From positions 1 to 48,372 of the forward strand of contig NZ_LOQI01000006.1 in the NCBI RefSeq assembly GCF_001517915.1: a stretch of 48,372 nucleotides of DNA. The letters run 5' to 3'. Shown here piece after piece: positions 3,248-39,742 of this stretch. The notes beneath the pieces were generated by a model. The model did not search any database, was not told the origin of the DNA, and saw only the letters and a list, made by a program, of their open reading frames with translations. The stretch is from Oceanivirga salmonicida. Lineage in GTDB: Bacteria; Fusobacteriota; Fusobacteriia; Fusobacteriales; Leptotrichiaceae. The stretch's first letter is position 1. Each line of letters begins with the position of its first letter. The translations under genes were made by a program, and so were the position numbers.

Positions 3248-3266
3248 AGATTGGGGGTTTAGTAAA

Positions 3267-10432: not shown

Positions 10433-11659
10433 ATGATAGAAGATAAATACTATGATTGTTCATTTTGTGGTGAAAATAGCCCTAACTTAGAATATATAGA
10501 AGGAGATGAACAAGCACAAATTTGTGAAAATTGTGTAAAAAGATGTGCTTTATTACTTGAAGAACAAAAAGTTTTGTCTAAAACATCAGAAAATAATTTT
10601 AATGTAAATCTTTTAAAACCTAAGGAAATTAAAGAAAAATTAGATGAGTATATAATAGGACAAGATAGAGCTAAAAAAGTTCTGTCAGTTGCTGTATACA
10701 ATCATTTTAAAAGGATTTCTTTAAAGTTAAAACAAGATTTAGACGTTGAAATTCAAAAATCTAATGTGTTATTAATAGGGCCTACTGGAAGTGGTAAAAC
10801 TTTATTAGCCCAAACATTAGCCAAAATATTAAATGTACCTATAGCAATAGCTGATGCTACTACTGTAACAGAAGCAGGTTATGTGGGAGATGACGTAGAA
10901 AATGTTTTATTAAAATTAATAAAAGCAGCGGATTATGATATTGAAGCAGCACAAAGAGGAATAATTTACATAGATGAAATAGATAAGATAGCAAGAAAAT
11001 CTGAAAACACTTCTATAACAAGAGATGTATCAGGTGAAGGAGTTCAACAAGCCCTACTTAAAATTGTAGAAGGGACAGTGTCATCTGTTCCACCACAAGG
11101 TGGCAGAAAACACCCTAATCAAGAATTGTTAGAAATAGATACAACTGATATATTATTTATAGTTGGTGGAGCATTTTCTGGATTAGAAAAGAAAATAAAG
11201 AGTAGATTTAATGTAAAACAAATAGGTTTTGGAAATAATAGTAAAAATATTGATTTAACAGAAGAAACTATATTTAAACATGTATTACCAGAAGATCTTA
11301 AAAAGTTTGGGCTTATTCCTGAATTAATAGGTAGATTTCCTGTAATAGCAGCACTTAATCAGTTAGATGAAGAAGCACTTATTAAGATACTAACTGAACC
11401 TAAAAATGCTTTGGTTAAACAATACCAAAAGTTTTTTGAAATGGAAGATATAGAATTATCTTTTGATAAAGGGGCATTAAAAGAAATTGCAAAATTAGCA
11501 TTTAAGAAAAAAATAGGAGCAAGAGGGCTTAGAAGTATAGTAGAAAATGCACTTCTTGATTTAATGTATGAAATTCCTAGTGAAAATAATATTAAAAAAT
11601 TAGTAATCACAAAGAAAATTATAGATGAAAAAAATAAAGTTAATACAGATAAGGAGTAA
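10433..11659 (+). CDS. clpX: ATP-dependent Clp protease ATPase subunit ClpX
   Basis: 408-residue AAA+ unfoldase that feeds ClpP. Zinc-binding domain with two CxxC pairs (C9/C12 and C31/C34), Walker A GPTGSGKT, Walker [12 protein letters not shown], and the family stretch [20 protein letters not shown]. An in-frame ATG at 10418 overlaps the clpP stop, but AAAGGAAAG (10421-10429) sits at proper distance for the ATG at 10433, and MIEDKYYDC is the natural N-terminus. Confidence 0.95.
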
Positions 11660-11662
11660 TAA

Positions 11663-13975
11663 ATGATACCAGTAATTCCTGTAAGACAAATTGTTTGTAT
11701 GCCAGGTATAGAGTCTAGTATTAGATTAGGTAGAAAATTTAGCATTAATGCAGCTAACTTAGCTATGGAGAATAAGCAAATAGTATTAGTTGTACAAAAA
11801 GATATAAAAGACCTAGATATAACAGTAGATGATATAGAACAATATGGTATACTAGCAGAAACAACGAATTTAACTAAAACAAAAAATGATAACTATAATT
11901 TATTTGTTAAAGGTATTAAGCGTGTAAAATTAAAAAAATTAAACTATGACAAAGAAAAAAATAGTTTTATGACTGAAGTAATAAATGTAAGAACTAAAAT
12001 GGATTTAATAGATGATGAAAATTATAAAAAAACTATCTATAATCCAGAATATTTAGTTGCTATGGCAACAGATCTATTTACTAATAAATCTTTTGTTAAA
12101 TCTGAGGAAGGAATGAATTTATTAACAGCAAGTTCATTAGAAGAATTACTTGATATATTAGTATATTTTGTAAGTTTTCCAGTAGAAGTAAAACAAAAAT
12201 ATATTAGAATTAGAAGCTTAGGAACGCGTATTAAAGAATTTTATAAAGATTTAAGTGTTGAAAAACAAAAAGCGCATATAGAAGAAAGTGTAAATATTAA
12301 AGTTAAAGAAATTATTGATGAGTCGCAAAGAAACTATTACTTAAAAGAAAAGATGAAAGTAATTAAAGAAGAATTAGGCGATGATACTGATGACTATATA
12401 GAAGGTCTATATGATAAATTAGAAGCAAGTGAGATGCCTAAAGACTTTAAGGAAAAAGTTTTAAAAGATTTGAAAAAATTAGAAAAAACACCTCAAATGT
12501 CAGCGGAATACAATGTGCTTTTAAACTATATAGAATTAGTTTTAGAATTGCCATTTAAAGCATCTGAGAAAAAAGCATTTGATTTGAAAAAAGCAAAACA
12601 AATATTAGATGAAGATCATTATGGTTTAAAAGAAGTAAAAGATGCGGTTTTAGAGTTCTTAGCAGTAATTGAACTTAAAAAGAAACTAGCAAAAAAGAAT
12701 ACTAAAAAAACAGCAAGTGTATTATGTTTAGTAGGACCTCCAGGTATAGGTAAAACTTCATTTGCAAATTCTATCGCAAGGGCTATGAATAGAGAATTTT
12801 CTAAGATTAGTTTGGGTGGAGTAGATGATGAAAGTGAAATAAGAGGACATAGAAGAACTTATGTAGCTGCTATGCCAGGTAGAATTATAGAAGCAGTAAA
12901 AAGAACGGGAGTAAATAACCCAGTTATATTATTAGATGAAATAGATAAATTAGATTCAAATTTTAGAGGAGATCCATCTTCTGCTTTATTAGAAGTATTA
13001 GATCCGGCTCAAAACTATAAGTTTGAAGATCATTTTATAGATTATCCTTATGATTTATCTAATGTATTCTTTATATGTACTGCTAATAATTATTCAACTA
13101 TACCTGAGCCATTATATGATAGATTAGAAGTTATATACATAGATTCATATACTGAATTAGAAAAATTAAACATAGCTATGAAATATTTAATATCTCAGGT
13201 AGCAGAAGAAACAGGTATAAAACTTAATCTTAAAGAAGATATAGTTTTAAAAATAATAAATTCATATACTAGAGAAGCAGGAGTTAGAAATCTTAAAAGG
13301 GAATTGGTTAAATTAGCGAGAAAAATGGCAAGAGAAACTCTTGAAGAATCTAAGAAAAAATTTATTATAGGAAAGAAAAATTTAGTTAAGTATTTAGGGC
13401 CTGAAAAATATAAGCCTGAAAAAATGGCTGAAAAAAAAGCGAAAAAAGGGAGTGTAACTGGACTTGCATGGACTAGTGTAGGGGGAACTACATTAGAAGT
13501 ACAAGCTTTAAAAATGCAAGGTGATGGAAAACTAATGTTAACTGGTAAATTAGGTGAGGTTATGCAAGAATCAGCAAAAGTTGCTTATTCTTTTGTAAGA
13601 AGTATAAAAGATAAGAAAAATAACTTTGAAAAAGATTCTGATATACATTTACATTTTCCAGAAGGAGCAGTACCAAAAGATGGACCATCTGCAGGTATAA
13701 CTATAACTACTGCAATATTATCAGTAGTATCTAATAAAAAGGTTAGACAAGATTTAGCTATGACAGGTGAAATAACATTGACAGGTGAAGTATTAGCCGT
13801 TGGTGGTATAAAAGAAAAGGTTATAGCAGCACATAGAATAGGTATAAGAGAAGTCATATTACCAAAAGAAAATGAAGTAGATACAAAAGAATTGCCAGCA
13901 GAAATATTAAAAGATATGAATTTTAATTTTGTTGCTAATTATAATGAAGTGATAAAAATAGCGTTAGTTAATTAA
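11663..13975 (+). CDS. lon: ATP-dependent protease La (Lon)
   Basis: 770-residue LonA. The N-terminal substrate-binding LAN domain starts PVIPVRQIVCMPG; the AAA+ module has GPPGIGKT and VILLDEIDKL; the protease domain has the Ser-Lys dyad S676 (KDGPSAG) and K719 (GGIKEKVIAAHR), spaced 43 residues as in E. coli Lon. Begins three bases after the clpX stop behind AAGGAG. It degrades misfolded and some regulatory proteins in the cytoplasm. Confidence 0.95.
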   Translation: MIPVIPVRQIVCMPGIESSIRLGRKFSINAANLAMENKQIVLVVQKDIKDLDITVDDIEQYGILAETTNLTKTKNDNYNLFVKGIKRVKLKKLNYDKEKNSFMTEVINVRTKMDLIDDENYKKTIYNPEYLVAMATDLFTNKSFVKSEEGMNLLTASSLEELLDILVYFVSFPVEVKQKYIRIRSLGTRIKEFYKDLSVEKQKAHIEESVNIKVKEIIDESQRNYYLKEKMKVIKEELGDDTDDYIEGLYDKLEASEMPKDFKEKVLKDLKKLEKTPQMSAEYNVLLNYIELVLELPFKASEKKAFDLKKAKQILDEDHYGLKEVKDAVLEFLAVIELKKKLAKKNTKKTASVLCLVGPPGIGKTSFANSIARAMNREFSKISLGGVDDESEIRGHRRTYVAAMPGRIIEAVKRTGVNNPVILLDEIDKLDSNFRGDPSSALLEVLDPAQNYKFEDHFIDYPYDLSNVFFICTANNYSTIPEPLYDRLEVIYIDSYTELEKLNIAMKYLISQVAEETGIKLNLKEDIVLKIINSYTREAGVRNLKRELVKLARKMARETLEESKKKFIIGKKNLVKYLGPEKYKPEKMAEKKAKKGSVTGLAWTSVGGTTLEVQALKMQGDGKLMLTGKLGEVMQESAKVAYSFVRSIKDKKNNFEKDSDIHLHFPEGAVPKDGPSAGITITTAILSVVSNKKVRQDLAMTGEITLTGEVLAVGGIKEKVIAAHRIGIREVILPKENEVDTKELPAEILKDMNFNFVANYNEVIKIALVN

Positions 13976-31834: not shown

Positions 31835-32977
31835 CTAATATTTTATTTGTTTTAAAAGTGTTTTGCAGTTTTCTAGTTGATTTTTTTCAATTTCAAAAAT
31901 TTCATCTTTATTTATTATATTAAATAAATATTCTATATATTTTACAACTGTTTCAAGTTTATGCTTGTCATCATATAAAAAGTCTAATATATTATTATTG
32001 TGTGCAGCCCTATTTCTAAGTTCTTTTATAGATGATAGGTAATTTTGAAAATCTTTTTTACTTAAACTATATATTTTAGAAATTTCTTCTAATATATTAT
32101 CATGACTAGCATCTATTAAATCATTTAAACTACCCAAAGTAAATTTCTCCATTAAAATTAAAATGGGTATATCATCAGTAAAGTATTTTTGCTTATATAA
32201 ATTAACAAAATAGTTATTATCATCATTTTTAAGTAAATCTTTTGCTCTTTCTATACTATTATGAACACCCCTTATACTAGTTTTATGGCACCATTCGAAT
32301 TTTAAATAATCAAGTGGACCATTTTTACTTAATATTTTAGCAAAATTAGTTTTTATAGAAATTTCTATTATTTCTATAAGGGCAAGTAAATTAAAACGAA
32401 GTTTTTTGTCTAAATCTATTCTATTTCGTATTTCATCAAAAGATATATTATCTTTATATTTATTATTATTCATAAATACATAAGCAAAGTCTTTAAGTTC
32501 ATAGTAACTTGTATGTTTTAAATATGATTTAGCCTTTTCTTCATTTTCAAATGTTAAGTTTTTATTTTTTAATAATTCAATTAACCCATATTCATTTAAA
32601 AGATTTTTATTGTATTTTTTTCTTATTTTAGAAAATGCCCTAGCAATTGATTTGTATTCATCTACATTTATTTCTTTATTTGAGTATAAATACAGTAAGA
32701 ATACTATATGATTATCTAGAGTGAAAGGAATACAGACTTTTTTATAATCTAAACTTATATTTTCTTTATTAGTATTTAAAGAACTTTTTACAAAATCTAT
32801 ATCTTCTAAGTCTATATCTCCATGTACAGATGCTAATAATAGTTGTCTATTATCTATAATATATGCACAAATTAACTTTAAATTAGGATTATCCTTATTT
32901 AAAACATTAGTTAATTTAGATATTTTACTTATTAGCTGAGTATCTTGATAGATTATATCAAAAGCTTCATTATTCAT
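31835..32977 (-). CDS. Abi_2 (AbiD/F-like) HEPN protein with N-terminal GAF-like domain
   Basis: 380 residues. Residues 1-130 follow a GAF-like pattern (helix ISKISKLTNVLN, strand LICAYIIDNRQLLLASVHGD, then KKVCIPFTLDNHIVFLLYLY and helix IARAFSKI). Residues about 130-345 match Abi_2: LKNKNLTFENEEKAKSYLKH, then LDKKLRFNLLALIEIIEISI and ILMEKFTLGSLNDLI. It closes with ELRNRAAHNNN, the RNxxxH signature of HEPN ribonucleases. Its ATG lies inside the end of the ABC-F gene (8-base overlap) behind TTGGAGGA, so the two are translationally coupled. Role inferred: RNA-cleaving defence or stress effector with a sensor domain. Confidence 0.75.
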   Translation of the reverse strand: MNNEAFDIIYQDTQLISKISKLTNVLNKDNPNLKLICAYIIDNRQLLLASVHGDIDLEDIDFVKSSLNTNKENISLDYKKVCIPFTLDNHIVFLLYLYSNKEINVDEYKSIARAFSKIRKKYNKNLLNEYGLIELLKNKNLTFENEEKAKSYLKHTSYYELKDFAYVFMNNNKYKDNISFDEIRNRIDLDKKLRFNLLALIEIIEISIKTNFAKILSKNGPLDYLKFEWCHKTSIRGVHNSIERAKDLLKNDDNNYFVNLYKQKYFTDDIPILILMEKFTLGSLNDLIDASHDNILEEISKIYSLSKKDFQNYLSSIKELRNRAAHNNNILDFLYDDKHKLETVVKYIEYLFNIINKDEIFEIEKNQLENCKTLLKQIKY

Positions 32978-34850
32978 TTATTTCCTCCAATTCATTTTGT
33001 AATTGTTCCCATTTTTCAAGTAAGTTTAGTTCGCGGTCATTTAGTGAATTTAATTTTTCTTGTATTTCTACAAGTTTTCCAGCATTAGTTGCTATACTAG
33101 AGATAAACATTTTTTTGTTAAGTTCATCTTTTTCTAATTCAATTTCTTTGCTTCGTTTCTCAATATTTTCAATCTCTTTTTTTATTTTATTAATTCTTTT
33201 TAATTTTTCTTTTTGAGCAGTATAATTTAATTTTCCGCTATAAGATTTTGTATTATCATTTTTAGATATTAAACTTTTCTTATACTCCTCATAATTCCCT
33301 TTAAATTTAGTAAGTCCATTTTCATCTAATATGTATATTATATTACAAACACTGTCTATAAAATGTCTATTGTGCGAAACTAGTAATATACTTCCTTCAA
33401 AATCCTCTAAAGCATTTTCCAATATTTCTATAGAGTAAATATCTAAGTGGTTAGTAGGCTCATCTAATATTAAAAAATTCGCTTGTTTTTGTAACATTTT
33501 AATAAAAGATACTCTTACTTTTTCTCCACCAGATAAAGATGAAATCCTTTTTTCTATATCATCTTTTGTAAATAGAAAACCACCTGCCATACTTCTTAAA
33601 TATTCCTCTGTATAATTAATAGAAGTATTTATTTCTTGTAGTATAGTATTATCAGGACCTAAATCTTCATTGTTTTGGTCATAACTTGCCACATTAACTC
33701 TACTACCTAAAGTAATTTCTCCATTATCTGCTTTAATTTTGTTAGTTATAATTTTAAGTAAAGTAGATTTCCCAGAACCATTTTTACCTATAATTCCTAC
33801 TCTTTCTCCTTTATAAAGATTAAATGATATGTCATTTAGTACATTTTTATCATCAAAATTCTTGCATATATTTTTAACTATTAATACATTTTGTGCTGTA
33901 GGACTTTTAGGTATAAATTTTAACTTCATTCTTTTGATATTAAATATAGGGTCATCTATTCTGTCTATTCTGTTTAGGATTTTTTCACGACCTTTGGCTT
34001 GTTTAGCCATTCTACCAGCACGATTTCTTTCTATATACTCCTCTAATTTTTTTATTCTATCTTGTTCTTTTTCAAAGGCTTTTAATTTTCCCTTTATTAT
34101 CATTTCTTTTTGAATAATAAAGTCTGAAAAGTTACCGTTATACTTATATAGTTCCTTATTTTCTAATTCAAAAATACGATTACAAACATTATCTAAAAAT
34201 ACTCTATCATGTGATACTAATAAGAAAGCTTTATTGTATTTTAATAAAAAGTTTTCTAACCATTCTATAGATGCTAAATCTAAATGGTTAGTTGGCTCAT
34301 CTAATATTAAAAGTTCAGGTTCTTTTAAAAGTAGTTTAGCAAGAGAAACTCTAGTTTTTTCTCCTCCACTTAAATTAGAAATAATATTTTCTTGCATATC
34401 ATCTAATTCTAAACCATTTAAAACTTGCTTTATCCTATAATCTAAATTATATCCATCAAACGATAAAAAGATATTATTTAACTTTTCTAATTCACTAAGT
34501 AAATTTAAATCCTCATTTATCTGTATTTTAGCATTGATTTTTTCAATCTGACTTAAAATACCAAACTCATAAGCAAATGCAGATTTTAATTCTTCTAAAA
34601 CTGTATTATTTTCATCTGAAAAATTATGTTCTTGTGAAAGATAAGAAATATTTACATTTGGATTTACAAAAACATCTCCATTATCTATTCTCTCTGTCCC
34701 TTTTATTATATTTATTATTGTTGATTTACCAGCACCATTTAAGCCTATTAATCCTATTTTATCTTTGTCATTTATATTAAAAGTAACATTTTTTAAAATT
34801 GGTTTATCTAAAAATGATTTATTTACTTTATTAAATTGTATTATGTCCAT
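32970..34850 (-). CDS. ABC-F family ATPase
   Basis: 626 residues, two ABC domains without membrane segments. First: GLIGLNGAGKST, LSGGEKTRVSLAKLL, LLILDEPTNHLD; second: GIIGKNGSGKST, LSGGEKVRVSFIKML, LILDEPTNHLD. Between them is the charged helical linker (about 240-310, FEKEQDRIKKLEEYIERNRA) that reaches the peptidyl-transferase centre in ABC-F proteins, and a C-terminal coiled coil (about 555-626). The coiled coil suggests the Uup/YdiF group rather than a dedicated resistance factor, but by eye this is uncertain. Own promoter; overlaps the downstream Abi_2 gene. Confidence 0.9.
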   Translation of the reverse strand: MDIIQFNKVNKSFLDKPILKNVTFNINDKDKIGLIGLNGAGKSTIINIIKGTERIDNGDVFVNPNVNISYLSQEHNFSDENNTVLEELKSAFAYEFGILSQIEKINAKIQINEDLNLLSELEKLNNIFLSFDGYNLDYRIKQVLNGLELDDMQENIISNLSGGEKTRVSLAKLLLKEPELLILDEPTNHLDLASIEWLENFLLKYNKAFLLVSHDRVFLDNVCNRIFELENKELYKYNGNFSDFIIQKEMIIKGKLKAFEKEQDRIKKLEEYIERNRAGRMAKQAKGREKILNRIDRIDDPIFNIKRMKLKFIPKSPTAQNVLIVKNICKNFDDKNVLNDISFNLYKGERVGIIGKNGSGKSTLLKIITNKIKADNGEITLGSRVNVASYDQNNEDLGPDNTILQEINTSINYTEEYLRSMAGGFLFTKDDIEKRISSLSGGEKVRVSFIKMLQKQANFLILDEPTNHLDIYSIEILENALEDFEGSILLVSHNRHFIDSVCNIIYILDENGLTKFKGNYEEYKKSLISKNDNTKSYSGKLNYTAQKEKLKRINKIKKEIENIEKRSKEIELEKDELNKKMFISSIATNAGKLVEIQEKLNSLNDRELNLLEKWEQLQNELEEINE

Positions 34851-34874
34851 CTTTATCTCCTTTTATTTAACTAA

Positions 34875-34903
34875 ATACTATCATATATGTTTTAAATCTT
34901 CAA
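34875..34903 (-). promoter_or_regulatory. Promoter of the ABC-F/Abi_2 operon
   Basis: On the minus strand TTGAAG (34903-34898), 17-base spacer ending in TGA, then TAGTAT (34880-34875), i.e. an extended -10. AAAGGAGAT follows before the ATG at 34850. Confidence 0.55.
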
Positions 34904-34989
34904 TCTATTTATTATTAATTTCGGAATGCGGTCTAAATTAAAAAAGAAATTCTATAAGCTAACATTTATAGCTAAATAAATATTATTAT

Positions 34990-35019
34990 TTGACATTCAT
35001 GGGGGAGGGGGGGTATAAT
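34990..35019 (+). promoter_or_regulatory. Adhesin promoter with a poly-G spacer
   Basis: Perfect TTGACA (34990-34995) and perfect TATAAT (35014-35019) separated by 18 bases, 13 of which are G5-A-G7 (35001-35013). This is the longest G-rich run in a window that is about three-quarters A+T. Loss or gain of one G changes the spacer to 17 or 19. The start codon of the adhesin is 31 bases after the -10 box. Confidence 0.8.
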
Positions 35020-35050
35020 GTAATTGAGAAAAAATATAAGGGAGAAAAAT

Positions 35051-38000
35051 ATGGGAATTAAGGAAAAGATGAAATGGCTTAAAAAGTCATTAAAGAATAA
35101 AAAAAGTGTAACACTAGGATTAATGATATCATTTTTGATTAGTGGTAATTTATCAGTAGCAGCACCAGGTGAAAAAATTGGTGGACAAAACAATACTGCT
35201 ACAGGAGAAAATTCAGGTGTAGTAGCAGGGAATTCAAATACTGCTAGTGGTGTTTCTACTTCAGTAGTAGGTGGAGCATCAAATAAAGCTAATGGAGAAA
35301 GTTCATCTATAGTGGGTGGATTCAAAAATACTGCTGATGGTGAAAAATCAGGAATAATTGGCGGGTCTACAAACGCTACAACAGGTAGATATTCAGGTGT
35401 TTTAGGTGGAGCATCAAATAAAGCTAATGGAGAAAGTTCATCTGTAGTGAGTGGATTCAAAAATACTGCTGATGGCGAAAAATCAGGAATAATTGGAGGG
35501 TCTACAAATATTACAAAAGGTAGATATTCAGGTGTTTTAGGTGGAGTATTAAATAAAGCTAATGGAGAAGCTTCAACAGTAGTAGGTGGAGCAAAAAATA
35601 CTTCTGATGGGAAATTTTCATCAGTATTAGGTGGAGAAAATAATAAGGCTGAAGGAGTAGATTCAGCTGTAGTAGGTGGATCAACAAATACTGCCAAAGG
35701 AGTTAGATCAATAGTTTTAGGTGGTGGTTTAAATATAGCCGAAGGACAAGATTCAGCGGTACTTGCTGGAGGAAATGCTGGAGCTCCTAATATAGTTAAA
35801 GGGGAAAATTCAGTAATAGCAGGTGGAGCTGGTAATATTGTCGAAGCAGTGGGAAATTCTGGAATATTTGCTGGTTATAAAAATAAAGTTGAAAAAGCAG
35901 ATTCTGTAGTATTAGGAGGATATGATAATATTACTGCAGGAGATCGTACCGCAATAGTAGCTGGTATTCATAATAGAGTTTCAGGGACTTATTCAACAGC
36001 CTTAGGTGGAGTAAATAATGCAGTAACAGGATCACATTCAAGTGCGATAGCAGGAACTCAAAATAAGGTTTCAGGAATTACGTCAGTTGTGTTAGGAGGA
36101 CTGAAAAATGATGCTAGTGGAAACAGAACTGTAATATTAGGTGGAGATACTAATACAGCTTCAGGAACTCATTCTGTAGTAATGGGAGGATCAAAAAATA
36201 CTTCTAGTGGGAAATTTTCATCAGTAATAGGTGGTATAGGAAATCAAGCAATTGGGGCTTCGACTTCAGTAATAGGTGGTTATCAAAATAGAGCTGAAGG
36301 ACAAGATTCAGCAGTACTTGGTGGTGGAAATGGAAATAATCCAAATGTTACAAAGGGACATAATTCAGTAGTAGCTGGTGGAGCAGGTAATGTTGTTGAT
36401 ACGACTGGAGAAAACTCTGGAATATTTGGTGGTTATAAAAATAAAACTGAAAAAGTAGGTTCAGTAGTATTAGGTGGATTAACAAATACGGCTAGTGGAG
36501 AACGTTCATCAGTATTGGCTGGTTCAAGTAATAAAGCTTCAGGAAGCCATGCGTCAGTAGTAGGTGGTGCAGGTAACAAATCTGAAGGAGTATCATCAGT
36601 AGTAATAGGTGGAACAAAAAATACGGTTAGTGGTAATCATTCTGCTATAATTGGTGGTGTAAAAAGTACTGTTGCTGGAATTCAAAGTGTTTCAGTAGGT
36701 TCAGAAAATAAAATAGATAAAGATAAATCAATTGCTATAGGTCATAAAGCACATGCTAAAAATGAAAATTCATATGCATTTGGTAATGAAGTAGTATCAG
36801 AAGGAAAAAATTCATTTGCTATAGGACATAAAGCTAAATCAGTAGGAGAATATTCATTTGCAGTTGGTAATGAAGCAATATCAGAAGGTTTAGATTCATT
36901 TGCATTAGGTAAAAAAGCTACTTCAAAAGATGCAAATTCATTTGCACTTGGTACTGAATCAGAAGCTAAGAAGCAAAAATCATTTGCATTAGGGTATCAA
37001 GCTAAAACAGATGGAGATAGTGCATATGCATTAGGTGCTGAATCAAAAGCAACTGCACAAAACGCATTTGCTATAGGGTATAATGCACAAGCAAAAGGAG
37101 ATAGTTCTTATGCTTTAGGTAATGCTTCAATTGCAAGTAAAAAATATGCTTATGCTTTAGGTATAGGTGCGAATGCACAAGAAGAAGAGTCATATGCTAT
37201 AGGACATAATGCAGTAGCAACAAAGAAAAAAGCATTAGCAATAGGTAATGATTCACATGCTAAAGGAGAAAGTGCAGTAGCATTAGGAACTTCGGCAACA
37301 ACAGCATTAGATAATGCAGTAGCATTAGGTTCTGAAACAATTGCAGACGTTGATAAAGGTGTAGCAGGACATGATTTCTTAAAAGATGCAGCTAGTACAG
37401 AAACTGGCGGAGTTTGGAGTGCAACACATGCAGCAGTATCAGTAGGTAAGGCAGATGGAACTGTAACAAGACAAATAAATGGAGTGGCAGCTGGTACTAA
37501 AGATTCAGATGCAGTAAATGTGGCTCAAATTAAAGCATTAAAAATAGGAAAAGGTAAAATTGATGAAAACGACCCAGATAATGATAAAACTGTAACAGGT
37601 AAAACAGTATTTGACTATGTTAAAAATCAAGGATTAACATTTACAGGAAATGTAGGTTCAGAAGCAATAAAATTAGGAGAATCATTTGCAATAGAAGGAA
37701 CATTAGCAGCAGGAGAAGCAAGTTCATCTAAAAATGTAACAACAAAAGTAAATGGTAAAAAATTAGAAATACTAATAGCAGAAAAACCTAAATTTGAAGA
37801 AGTAGAAGCAGGAACTGGAGCAAATAAAGTTATTATAGGTGAAAATAAAATTTCATTAGGTGGTAATACATATATAACAAGTGATGGAGTAGATGCGAAT
37901 AATAAGAAAATTGCAAATGTTGCTGATGGTGTTGATGCTAAAGATGCAGTAAATAAGGGTCAATTAGATAAAATTAAGGATGAATTAGAAAAATCAGCTA

Positions 38001-39742
38001 AAGATTCAGTAGTAGTTAAACAAGTTGATGGAGAAACAAAAGTAACTAAGAATACTAATGGAAATGTTAATGAATATACTGTAGGATTAGCAGATTCTGT
38101 AAAAAGTGATATTGCTAAAATAGGTAAAGGTAAAGTAGAAGCTGGAGACCAAAATACAGTAACAGGAGATACAGTACATAAAGCTCTTAAAGATAATGTA
38201 GGTAAATTAGTAGACGTAACTTCAAAAGATGAAACAGTAAAAGTTGTAACAACTACTAAAGATGGTAAGAAAACATTTGATTTAGCAGTAAATAAAGAGA
38301 AGTTAGCAGAAGACTTTGCTAAAAAAGATGCAAGTAACTTAAATGATGACAATGTAAAACAATGGGCTGAAAAATTAAGTAAAGATGCTAATATTGCAAC
38401 ACTAGATGCAGCAAAACCAAGATTAGTAACTGACAAACAAGTTCATGATTATGTTAAAAAGACTGCAAGTGGTTTAGTTGACGTAAAAGAAAAACCAAAT
38501 TCAGGTATAGAAGTAATTGCTGATGGACCAGATGCAACTGGTAAGAAAACATTTACAGTAGGATTAGATGCACCAACTAAAGAAAAAGTTGATAAAATAG
38601 GAGATGGAGTAATTTCGGATACAGACCCTAAAAAAGATCATACAGTAACAGGAAAGGCAGTACATGATTATGTTAAAGATAATGCCATCAAAAAAGATGG
38701 AAGTAATCTTACAGTAAATGAAGTAACAAATCTTTCTAAAAAACTTGTAGGTGTAACTTCAGAGGATAAGTCATTAAATGTTGTTACAAAAACTAATGGA
38801 GCTGGAAAAGTAATATATGATTTAGCCGTAGATAAAGATGAATTAGCAAAAGATTTTGCTAAAAAAGATGCAAGCAATATAGATGATGCAGCAAAGGTTA
38901 AATGGAGAGAAAAATTAGGTGTTGGAACTGGTAAAATAGTAAAGGGAGATCAAAATACAGTAACAGGAGATACAGTACATAAACACTTGAAAGATAATTA
39001 TTATGATAGAAAAGATATTGATAATAAGTTAGGTAAAATAGGAGCAGAAACAGGAAAATTAAGTGGTGGAATAGCAACGTCAATGGCTATGGGTAATATA
39101 CCACAAGTAAGTGATAGACATTTATTCTCAATAGGAGCAGGTGGAGCTTATTATAATAAAACTGGTGGATTTGCTTTAGGTGTAAGTGGTACAATACCAT
39201 CAAGAAGATTTATATATAAAGTAAGTGCTGGTGTAGATACTAAAAAATCTTGGGGAGTAGCAGCAGGAGTAAATGTTAATTTATTCCCTGAAAAGAAAAA
39301 GAATATGGTTAAAACTACAATAGTTAAAGAAATACCAAAAGAAGAATTAGATAGATTAAAACAAGAAGTTAAAAATGAAATATTAAATGAAATGAAAAAA
39401 TCAATTAAATTTACTATAAAAGACTTCGATTTAGATAAATATAATTTAAAAGCAGAACAAATAGCAAAACTTGAAACTATAGTAGAAGTTATAAATGCAA
39501 ATTATGATGGAACAACAATAGAAATTATAGGGTATACAGATAGAGCATATACAGAACAATATAATTTAGATTTAGGATTAAGAAGAGCAGTTTCAGTTAG
39601 AAAGAAATTAATTGACTTAGGATTAAGCAAGAATGTAAACATAGAAATAAGATCAAGAGCATTTAATGAAATTAACGATGGTAATAGAAAAGATTTAAGA
39701 AGAGTAGAAGTATTAATCAATAATTTTGATATATACAATTAA
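35051..39742 (+). CDS. Giant trimeric autotransporter adhesin (YadA-like) with C-terminal OmpA domain
   Basis: 1563 residues. Long signal peptide (about 1-39, SVTLGLMISFLISGNLSVAA). Head 1 (about 50-545): 15-residue units with a GG-xxN-xAxGxxSxV pattern. Head 2 (about 545-770): 14-residue YadA units such as SFAIGHKAKSVGEY. Neck motifs DAVNVAQIKAL (near 820) and DAVNKGQLDKI lead to a coiled stalk with repeated GDQNTVTGDTVHK. The YadA anchor (about 1335-1413, GKLSGGIATSMAMGNIPQVS to GVAAGVNVNLF) is followed by a linker helix and an OmpA/MotB domain (about 1450-1563: IIGYTDRAYTEQYNLDLGLR then RAVSVRKKL). The ATG at 35051 follows AAGGGAG; a TTG at 35024 in frame is less likely. Confidence 0.9.
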   Translation: MGIKEKMKWLKKSLKNKKSVTLGLMISFLISGNLSVAAPGEKIGGQNNTATGENSGVVAGNSNTASGVSTSVVGGASNKANGESSSIVGGFKNTADGEKSGIIGGSTNATTGRYSGVLGGASNKANGESSSVVSGFKNTADGEKSGIIGGSTNITKGRYSGVLGGVLNKANGEASTVVGGAKNTSDGKFSSVLGGENNKAEGVDSAVVGGSTNTAKGVRSIVLGGGLNIAEGQDSAVLAGGNAGAPNIVKGENSVIAGGAGNIVEAVGNSGIFAGYKNKVEKADSVVLGGYDNITAGDRTAIVAGIHNRVSGTYSTALGGVNNAVTGSHSSAIAGTQNKVSGITSVVLGGLKNDASGNRTVILGGDTNTASGTHSVVMGGSKNTSSGKFSSVIGGIGNQAIGASTSVIGGYQNRAEGQDSAVLGGGNGNNPNVTKGHNSVVAGGAGNVVDTTGENSGIFGGYKNKTEKVGSVVLGGLTNTASGERSSVLAGSSNKASGSHASVVGGAGNKSEGVSSVVIGGTKNTVSGNHSAIIGGVKSTVAGIQSVSVGSENKIDKDKSIAIGHKAHAKNENSYAFGNEVVSEGKNSFAIGHKAKSVGEYSFAVGNEAISEGLDSFALGKKATSKDANSFALGTESEAKKQKSFALGYQAKTDGDSAYALGAESKATAQNAFAIGYNAQAKGDSSYALGNASIASKKYAYALGIGANAQEEESYAIGHNAVATKKKALAIGNDSHAKGESAVALGTSATTALDNAVALGSETIADVDKGVAGHDFLKDAASTETGGVWSATHAAVSVGKADGTVTRQINGVAAGTKDSDAVNVAQIKALKIGKGKIDENDPDNDKTVTGKTVFDYVKNQGLTFTGNVGSEAIKLGESFAIEGTLAAGEASSSKNVTTKVNGKKLEILIAEKPKFEEVEAGTGANKVIIGENKISLGGNTYITSDGVDANNKKIANVADGVDAKDAVNKGQLDKIKDELEKSAKDSVVVKQVDGETKVTKNTNGNVNEYTVGLADSVKSDIAKIGKGKVEAGDQNTVTGDTVHKALKDNVGKLVDVTSKDETVKVVTTTKDGKKTFDLAVNKEKLAEDFAKKDASNLNDDNVKQWAEKLSKDANIATLDAAKPRLVTDKQVHDYVKKTASGLVDVKEKPNSGIEVIADGPDATGKKTFTVGLDAPTKEKVDKIGDGVISDTDPKKDHTVTGKAVHDYVKDNAIKKDGSNLTVNEVTNLSKKLVGVTSEDKSLNVVTKTNGAGKVIYDLAVDKDELAKDFAKKDASNIDDAAKVKWREKLGVGTGKIVKGDQNTVTGDTVHKHLKDNYYDRKDIDNKLGKIGAETGKLSGGIATSMAMGNIPQVSDRHLFSIGAGGAYYNKTGGFALGVSGTIPSRRFIYKVSAGVDTKKSWGVAAGVNVNLFPEKKKNMVKTTIVKEIPKEELDRLKQEVKNEILNEMKKSIKFTIKDFDLDKYNLKAEQIAKLETIVEVINANYDGTTIEIIGYTDRAYTEQYNLDLGLRRAVSVRKKLIDLGLSKNVNIEIRSRAFNEINDGNRKDLRRVEVLINNFDIYN
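35271..35540 (+). repeat. Two 135-bp direct repeats in the adhesin head
   Basis: 35271-35405 and 35406-35540 are near-identical tandem copies, each coding three 15-residue head units (GGASNKANGESSS..., GFKNTADGEKSG..., GGSTN...TGRYSGVL). A third, more diverged start of the unit follows (GGVLNKANGE). Two longer related blocks recur further on (EGQDSAVL...GIFAGYKNK and EGQDSAVL...GIFGGYKNK, around 35745-35890 and 36295-36440). Confidence 0.8.

Follow-up and report, generated by a model that had tools for sequence, protein, structure and literature searches.

An A-interrupted poly-G promoter spacer before a large adhesin gene of Oceanivirga salmonicida, a likely stabilised relative of probably phase-variable promoters in the Leptotrichiaceae

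In Neisseria meningitidis, the amount of an outer-membrane protein depends on how long a poly-G tract in the porA promoter spacer is (PMC3639595, PMC7864442), and in Treponema pallidum a spacer poly-G tract precedes tp0126, which encodes an OmpW homologue and is transcribed best when the spacer is 17 nt long (PMC7864442). The tract length taken to indicate switching differs among studies: work on Neisseria has used a cut-off of at least 9 G and cites the G7 tract of siaD as switching at <1e-5 (PMC5953494), a comparison of N. gonorrhoeae used a threshold of at least 7 (PMC1097732), and Campylobacter work likewise set the cut-off at 7 or more and counted G7 as mutable (PMC6321876). Interrupted tracts have been treated as non-phase-variable in both Neisseria (PMC1097732) and Campylobacter (PMC6321876), and base substitution or shortening of a tract goes with lost phase variability, for example in gonococcal hmbR and in non-phase-variable homologues (PMC1097732, PMC6321876). 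Oceanivirga salmonicida is a member of the Leptotrichiaceae (PMC5093955), and the window analysed here is a whole 48,372-nucleotide contig (C6) of its draft assembly (1,768,580 bases in 247 contigs). A sequence-only reading had proposed slippage-driven phase variation of an adhesin promoter in this window on the precedents of porA and opc; porA does carry poly-G in its spacer, but the opc tract is poly-C and extends over the -35 region (PMC7864442).

Architecture of the adhesin promoter

Within 34700-35200 the only 12/12 promoter-like match is the TTGACA/TATAAT site listed in Table 1, and its perfect boxes, its 18-nt spacer and the 13 nt of that spacer occupied by G5-A-G7 are all present as first read. 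The spacer comprises TTCAT (34996-35000), GGGGG (35001-35005), a single A (35006) and GGGGGGG. Judged from sequence, a sigma-70-type promoter of the adhesin gene is the best explanation of 34990-35019. As in porA-type promoters, a homopolymer lies between the two boxes, and the gene presumably under its control encodes a surface-exposed antigen by its YadA head, stalk and anchor matches; the unbroken tract of about 8-9 G or more that characterises such promoters is absent, the A at 35006 splitting it so that G7 is the longest run, a length still within the more permissive limit of 7 or more (PMC6321876). Loss of one G had been expected to give an optimal 17-nt spacer, but 18 nt is not clearly suboptimal in this genome, where the 33 perfect non-poly-G promoters have spacers of 16 nt in 14 cases, 17 nt in 11 and 18 nt in 6. 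At 18-nt spacing the adhesin promoter should be active, with only rare slippage expected in its G7 run.

Table 1. Coordinates of the adhesin promoter and neighbouring features in the window
Feature	Position	Strand	Basis or remark
Divergent ABC-F ATPase gene, ribosomal protection-like	32970-34850	-	Syntenic marker for the sister-species locus
-35 box TTGACA	34990-34995	+	Sequence read, promoter-box scan
18-nt spacer TTCAT-GGGGG-A-GGGGGGG, containing GGGGGAGGG	34996-35013	+	Sequence; genome-wide motif count
G7, longest unbroken run and sole part with appreciable slippage potential	35007-35013	+	Sequence; length thresholds of PMC5953494 and PMC6321876
-10 box TATAAT	35014-35019	+	Sequence read, promoter-box scan
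Expected transcription start, about 7 nt past the -10 box	35025-35028	+	Predicted from the -10 position
Shine-Dalgarno site GGGAG	35040-35044	+	Sequence
Trimeric autotransporter adhesin (TAA) gene, 1563 aa from ATG 35051	35051-39742	+	ORF, profile matches

The claim that a large surface adhesin lies downstream was borne out. Its product begins with a long signal peptide, continues with YadA heads and a coiled stalk, and ends with a YadA anchor followed by a C-terminal OmpA-like domain, with PF03895, PF05658 and PF05662 above cut-off, and thus combines the anchor, head and stalk of type Vc proteins. With the OmpA-like domain (PF00691, residues 1468-1545 of P0001) placed after it, the anchor is not at the extreme C-terminus, a position that is typical of type Vc and not obligatory. 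This domain (window 39101-39658) probably binds peptidoglycan. TTG 35024 was rejected as the adhesin start codon in favour of ATG 35051 because transcription probably begins at that codon or downstream of it, and a 241-aa minus-strand ORF at 34972-35697 was set aside as a frame running antisense to the repeats. Beside the ABC-F gene, both species of the genus carry a gene for a 380-aa protein (window 31835-32977, minus strand; L255:6835-8094), for which no NCBIfam match was found.

The window contains 26.3% G+C, in agreement with the earlier figure of about three-quarters A+T. It had also been described as almost free of other G-runs, which holds for runs longer than five; five further GGGGG runs begin at 3253, 4171, 13481, 41558 and 44112, and the frequency of GGGGG is no higher than in shuffles. 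The longer pattern is far rarer: G5NG7 with up to 2 mismatches gave 3 overlapping matches in the window versus a shuffle mean of 0.13, and an order-3 Markov model predicts ~0.001 copies of G5AG7 per 1.77-Mb genome. It is accordingly very improbable that the tract arose by chance or through faulty assembly and has no functional meaning. An artefact would find some footing in the draft state of the 247-contig assembly, which poly-G tracts are able to break, and in one poly-G promoter locus represented by the overlapping contigs C47 and C72 (L065:6855-6963, L068:7300-7558), where substitutions in C47 cluster after the tract in a read-phasing-like pattern. The adhesin promoter, however, lies well within its 48-kb contig, and its interrupted tract is shared by four adhesin promoters whose boxes are good; chance was rejected on the shuffles, the Markov expectation and the class-wide enrichment in promoter frames described below. 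The G14 of C47 and the G13 of C72 were not accepted as natural alleles, given the ungapped overlap at one locus and the phasing-like errors of C47, and with such an overlap the poly-G lengths of this assembly need care.

A shared interruption in four adhesin promoters

The nonamer GGGGGAGGG occurs exactly 4 times in the 1.77-Mb genome, versus ~0.7 copies expected anywhere in it, and all four copies lie in -35/-10 spacers before TAA genes: in the window (C6; G5-A-G7, spacer 18 nt, TAA of 1563 aa), on C8 (TTGACTTTTATGCAGGGGGAGGGTATAAT, 17 nt, 1702 aa), on C25 (TTGACAAGTAGGGGGAGGGGTATGGTATAAT, 19 nt, 2345 aa) and on C93 (TTGACTTTTTAGGGGGAGGGGTGCTAAAAT, 18 nt, 1435 aa). A fifth TAA gene of the genome (C45) has no GGGGGAGGG element. 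In that order of contigs, the 5' run is G5 throughout and the 3' run is 7, 3, 4 and 4, which indicates that its length has changed over evolutionary time; the distance of the motif to the -35 box is 5, 8, 4 and 5 nt and that to the -10 box 0, 0, 5 and 3 nt, and total spacing has thus been kept more strictly than motif position. The coding starts of C6 and C8 are 75% identical over 152 nt, core included, and those of C8 and C93 87% over 62 nt, while the distal upstream flanks of the four promoters align poorly. Duplication of gene and promoter together would be the simplest origin of the four.

The nonamer might instead be a selected regulatory or structural element, either the site of a bound regulator or a stiff G-rich helix, that jointly sets the four giant-adhesin promoters. 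Its restriction to TAA spacers in the O. salmonicida genome, its 5' part of always exactly G5-A and its survival where distal flanks are poorly conserved would all fit such a role. We nevertheless regard it as quite improbable, because the motif is unfixed in position relative to either box, shared descent accounts for its recurrence and the regulator is only hypothetical. Moreover, none of the 32 related genomes has GGGGGAGGG in promoter frame, which leaves O. salmonicida alone among the 33 of the family; a search for the same interrupted motif in the other genera yielded only isolated shorter cases in Streptobacillus. Something other than stability could still account for the conservation of the A-interruption.

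Pure poly-G spacers across the family

The pattern TTGAC-N(2-9)-G8-N(0-8)-TATAAT matched in 12 of 98 Fusobacteriota genomes and gave zero control matches. In a survey of genome contigs, the poly-G promoter-spacer matches listed (L100-L179) also included many Clostridia and Bacilli metagenome genomes, and one Candidatus Ancillula genome had several of them. Streptobacillus was represented by G014 (loci L275-L306), which we take to be S. moniliformis DSM 12112, by S. notomytis (G096; L307-L330) and by G005 (L331-L347). Tracts of at least 9 G number 38, 26 and 18 in these genomes, respectively, and 33, 22 and 18 of them lie in a noncoding -35/-10 frame (73 of 82), most of these upstream of surface-protein genes, the last count possibly including one G8 tract. 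Of all 100 tracts with enough flanking sequence, 81 stood in such a frame on the G strand; the C strand gave 1 of 100, and random positions 0.7%. By a hydrophobicity threshold that is our own heuristic, 58 of 62 readable downstream ORFs had a hydrophobic N-terminus, compared with 9 of 26 ORFs of the window. In G014 the poly-G promoters had a median spacer of 19 nt, and the remaining perfect promoters one of 17 nt (Mann-Whitney p = 7e-5). The most frequent lengths there were likewise 19 and 17 nt; 19 nt may be a weak state, or poly-G may move the optimum.

With one genome compared per species, tract length differed in 12 of 17 Streptobacillus orthologous pairs, subject to the error that assembled homopolymer lengths carry, and several of the flanks were 95-100% identical with a few gaps at most. 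Length differences between near-identical orthologues are the signature of a hypermutable tract, as slippage predicts. Thus the Leptotrichiaceae poly-G spacer class is probably phase-variable, a reading based on its architecture and the orthologue comparison. Our search of the open-access literature found no description of a poly-G promoter class in Leptotrichiaceae or Streptobacillus. The adhesin promoter of the window shares with the class TTGAC(A/T) and TATAAT-like boxes 15-21 nt apart and a G tract in the spacer of the non-template strand; it lacks the pure tract of at least 8 G and falls instead into an interrupted subclass made up of the four GGGGGAGGG sites.

The O. salmonicida genome contains seven tracts of at least 9 G at six loci, C47 and C72 overlapping, and four of the seven have clear boxes. 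A G12 tract in an 18-nt spacer precedes a gene for a 356-aa protein with a signal-peptide-like start (C14), and a second G12 tract, also in an 18-nt spacer, precedes a gene that by inspection is CoA-transferase-like (C58, L067:6379-6408); C72, with its overlapping copy C47, has G13 in a 17-nt spacer before a gene for a 2324-aa autotransporter-looking protein, and C7 has G13 with a weaker -35 box. The target of the C58 promoter is thus a metabolic gene and not a surface one. O. salmonicida therefore carries tracts of phase-variation length, but not in the TAA promoters examined. In a core alignment, the interrupted C8 promoter and the pure C58 promoter were 86% identical over 42 nt.

Conservation of the promoter was not found in the sister species (G001): at the syntenic locus the ABC-F gene is followed by genes for two reduced proteins with anchor and OmpA domains (L255:10280-11119, 11157-12464), and a poly-G promoter is lacking. 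Pure poly-G promoters occur there at other genes, one of them before a TAA gene (TTGACAATTTAGGT-G11-TATAAT). Streptobacillus offers both forms in related sequences. The S. moniliformis locus L357 has TTGACAAAATATACGGGGGAGGATATAAT (G5AG2) in a 17-nt spacer, whereas its S. notomytis homologue L321 has a pure G10 in an 18-nt spacer (88% identity over 224 nt); within S. notomytis, L355 has GGGAGGG (G3AG3) in a 16-nt spacer and its paralogue L329 a pure G11 in an 18-nt spacer (83% identity over 321 nt). The homology of these two pairs shows common descent of pure and interrupted forms over short evolutionary scales. The interrupted Streptobacillus tracts stand at 16-17 nt, the ordinary promoter spacing, as expected if a favourable state had been fixed; at the 17-19 nt of the interrupted O. 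salmonicida spacers, fixation at an optimum is less clear.

A proposed change from switch to fixed promoter, and comparison with known systems

The reading that we favour, over an active switch and over a dedicated G-rich element, is that the adhesin promoter is a stabilised derivative of a phase-variable poly-G promoter, duplicated together with its adhesin gene, and we hold this to be likely, with some reserve. In uninterrupted members of the class, slipped-strand gain or loss of G would very probably shift the distance between the -35 and -10 boxes and hence promoter strength, as in porA. In the adhesin promoter and the three paralogous ones, the tract is broken by an A that follows five Gs, which would leave the spacer at 17-19 nt and the longest runs (G7 at C6, G5 in the other three) prone to slip only rarely. 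That 34990-35019 is active as a promoter, that its tract mutates little and that pure tracts gave rise to interrupted ones are our inferences.

Active phase variation of the porA type, in which slippage of G7 (and G5) would move the spacer among 17, 18 and 19 nt and so tune adhesin transcription, is what had been proposed at the outset. The sigma-70-type boxes, the G-rich spacer and the adhesin gene of that proposal stand, and porA-like spacers proved to be spread genome-wide in the family. Indeed, the architecture and the surface-antigen target suit a switch, the class is widespread with pure tracts that vary in length, the 3' run varies across the four paralogues, and G7, long enough by the more permissive threshold (7 or more) and counted mutable in the Campylobacter analysis (PMC6321876), makes slow switching possible. 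Yet the interrupting A leaves this run as the longest, below the usual length for efficient switching, so that the site is atypical within its probably phase-variable class; a G7 tract in Neisseria siaD is reported at <1e-5 (PMC5953494), and the pure switch-type promoters of the same genome carry G12-13. Furthermore, the G5-A interruption is kept in all four GGGGGAGGG TAA promoters, three of which have runs too short to slip appreciably, and the same interruption in four diverged promoters would not be expected of a freely slipping tract. Active switching at this promoter is therefore unlikely, in our view, and the stabilised derivative remains the preferred account.

Taken together, these observations allow a broader and more tentative proposal, for which we would claim something short of an even chance: that the Leptotrichiaceae, Streptobacillus above all, have a promoter-based phasome with dozens of surface-protein genes under porA-type poly-G spacers, and that O. 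salmonicida has tamed the switch for its largest adhesins by an A-interruption (GGGGGAGGG) that selection has maintained across four diverged promoters, so that what was a contingency locus became a fixed element. Accounts of poly-G spacer switching usually concern single genes (porA, tp0126), whereas here it looks like a genome-wide class of surface-protein promoters in a family to which the rat-bite fever agent and a salmon pathogen both belong. Should this be confirmed, these bacteria would express their antigens in combinations that comparisons of gene content do not reveal, and the interrupted adhesin promoters would provide a natural comparison for how a contingency locus is switched off.

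Among described systems, porA of N. meningitidis resembles the adhesin promoter in having poly-G between the -35 and -10 boxes; its tracts are G9-G11 and have been seen to vary, whereas the adhesin promoter has G5-A-G7 as read in one genome, and, unlike porA, the same interrupted tract stands before four paralogous genes of O. salmonicida. The tp0126 promoter has its poly-G in the same place, but it serves a single gene with a measured length effect, and both phylum and gene are unrelated. The degraded tracts of Neisseria and Campylobacter share with the adhesin promoter a base substitution within the tract, yet in O. salmonicida the interruption is common to four promoters with intact genes and near-normal spacing. 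The Streptobacillus promoters belong to the same family and have TTGACA-N-Gn-TATAAT or TATACT before surface-protein genes that include adhesins; they differ in being mostly pure G9-G12, at 18-33 per genome, with length differences between orthologues and only a few interrupted members at spacers of 16-17 nt.
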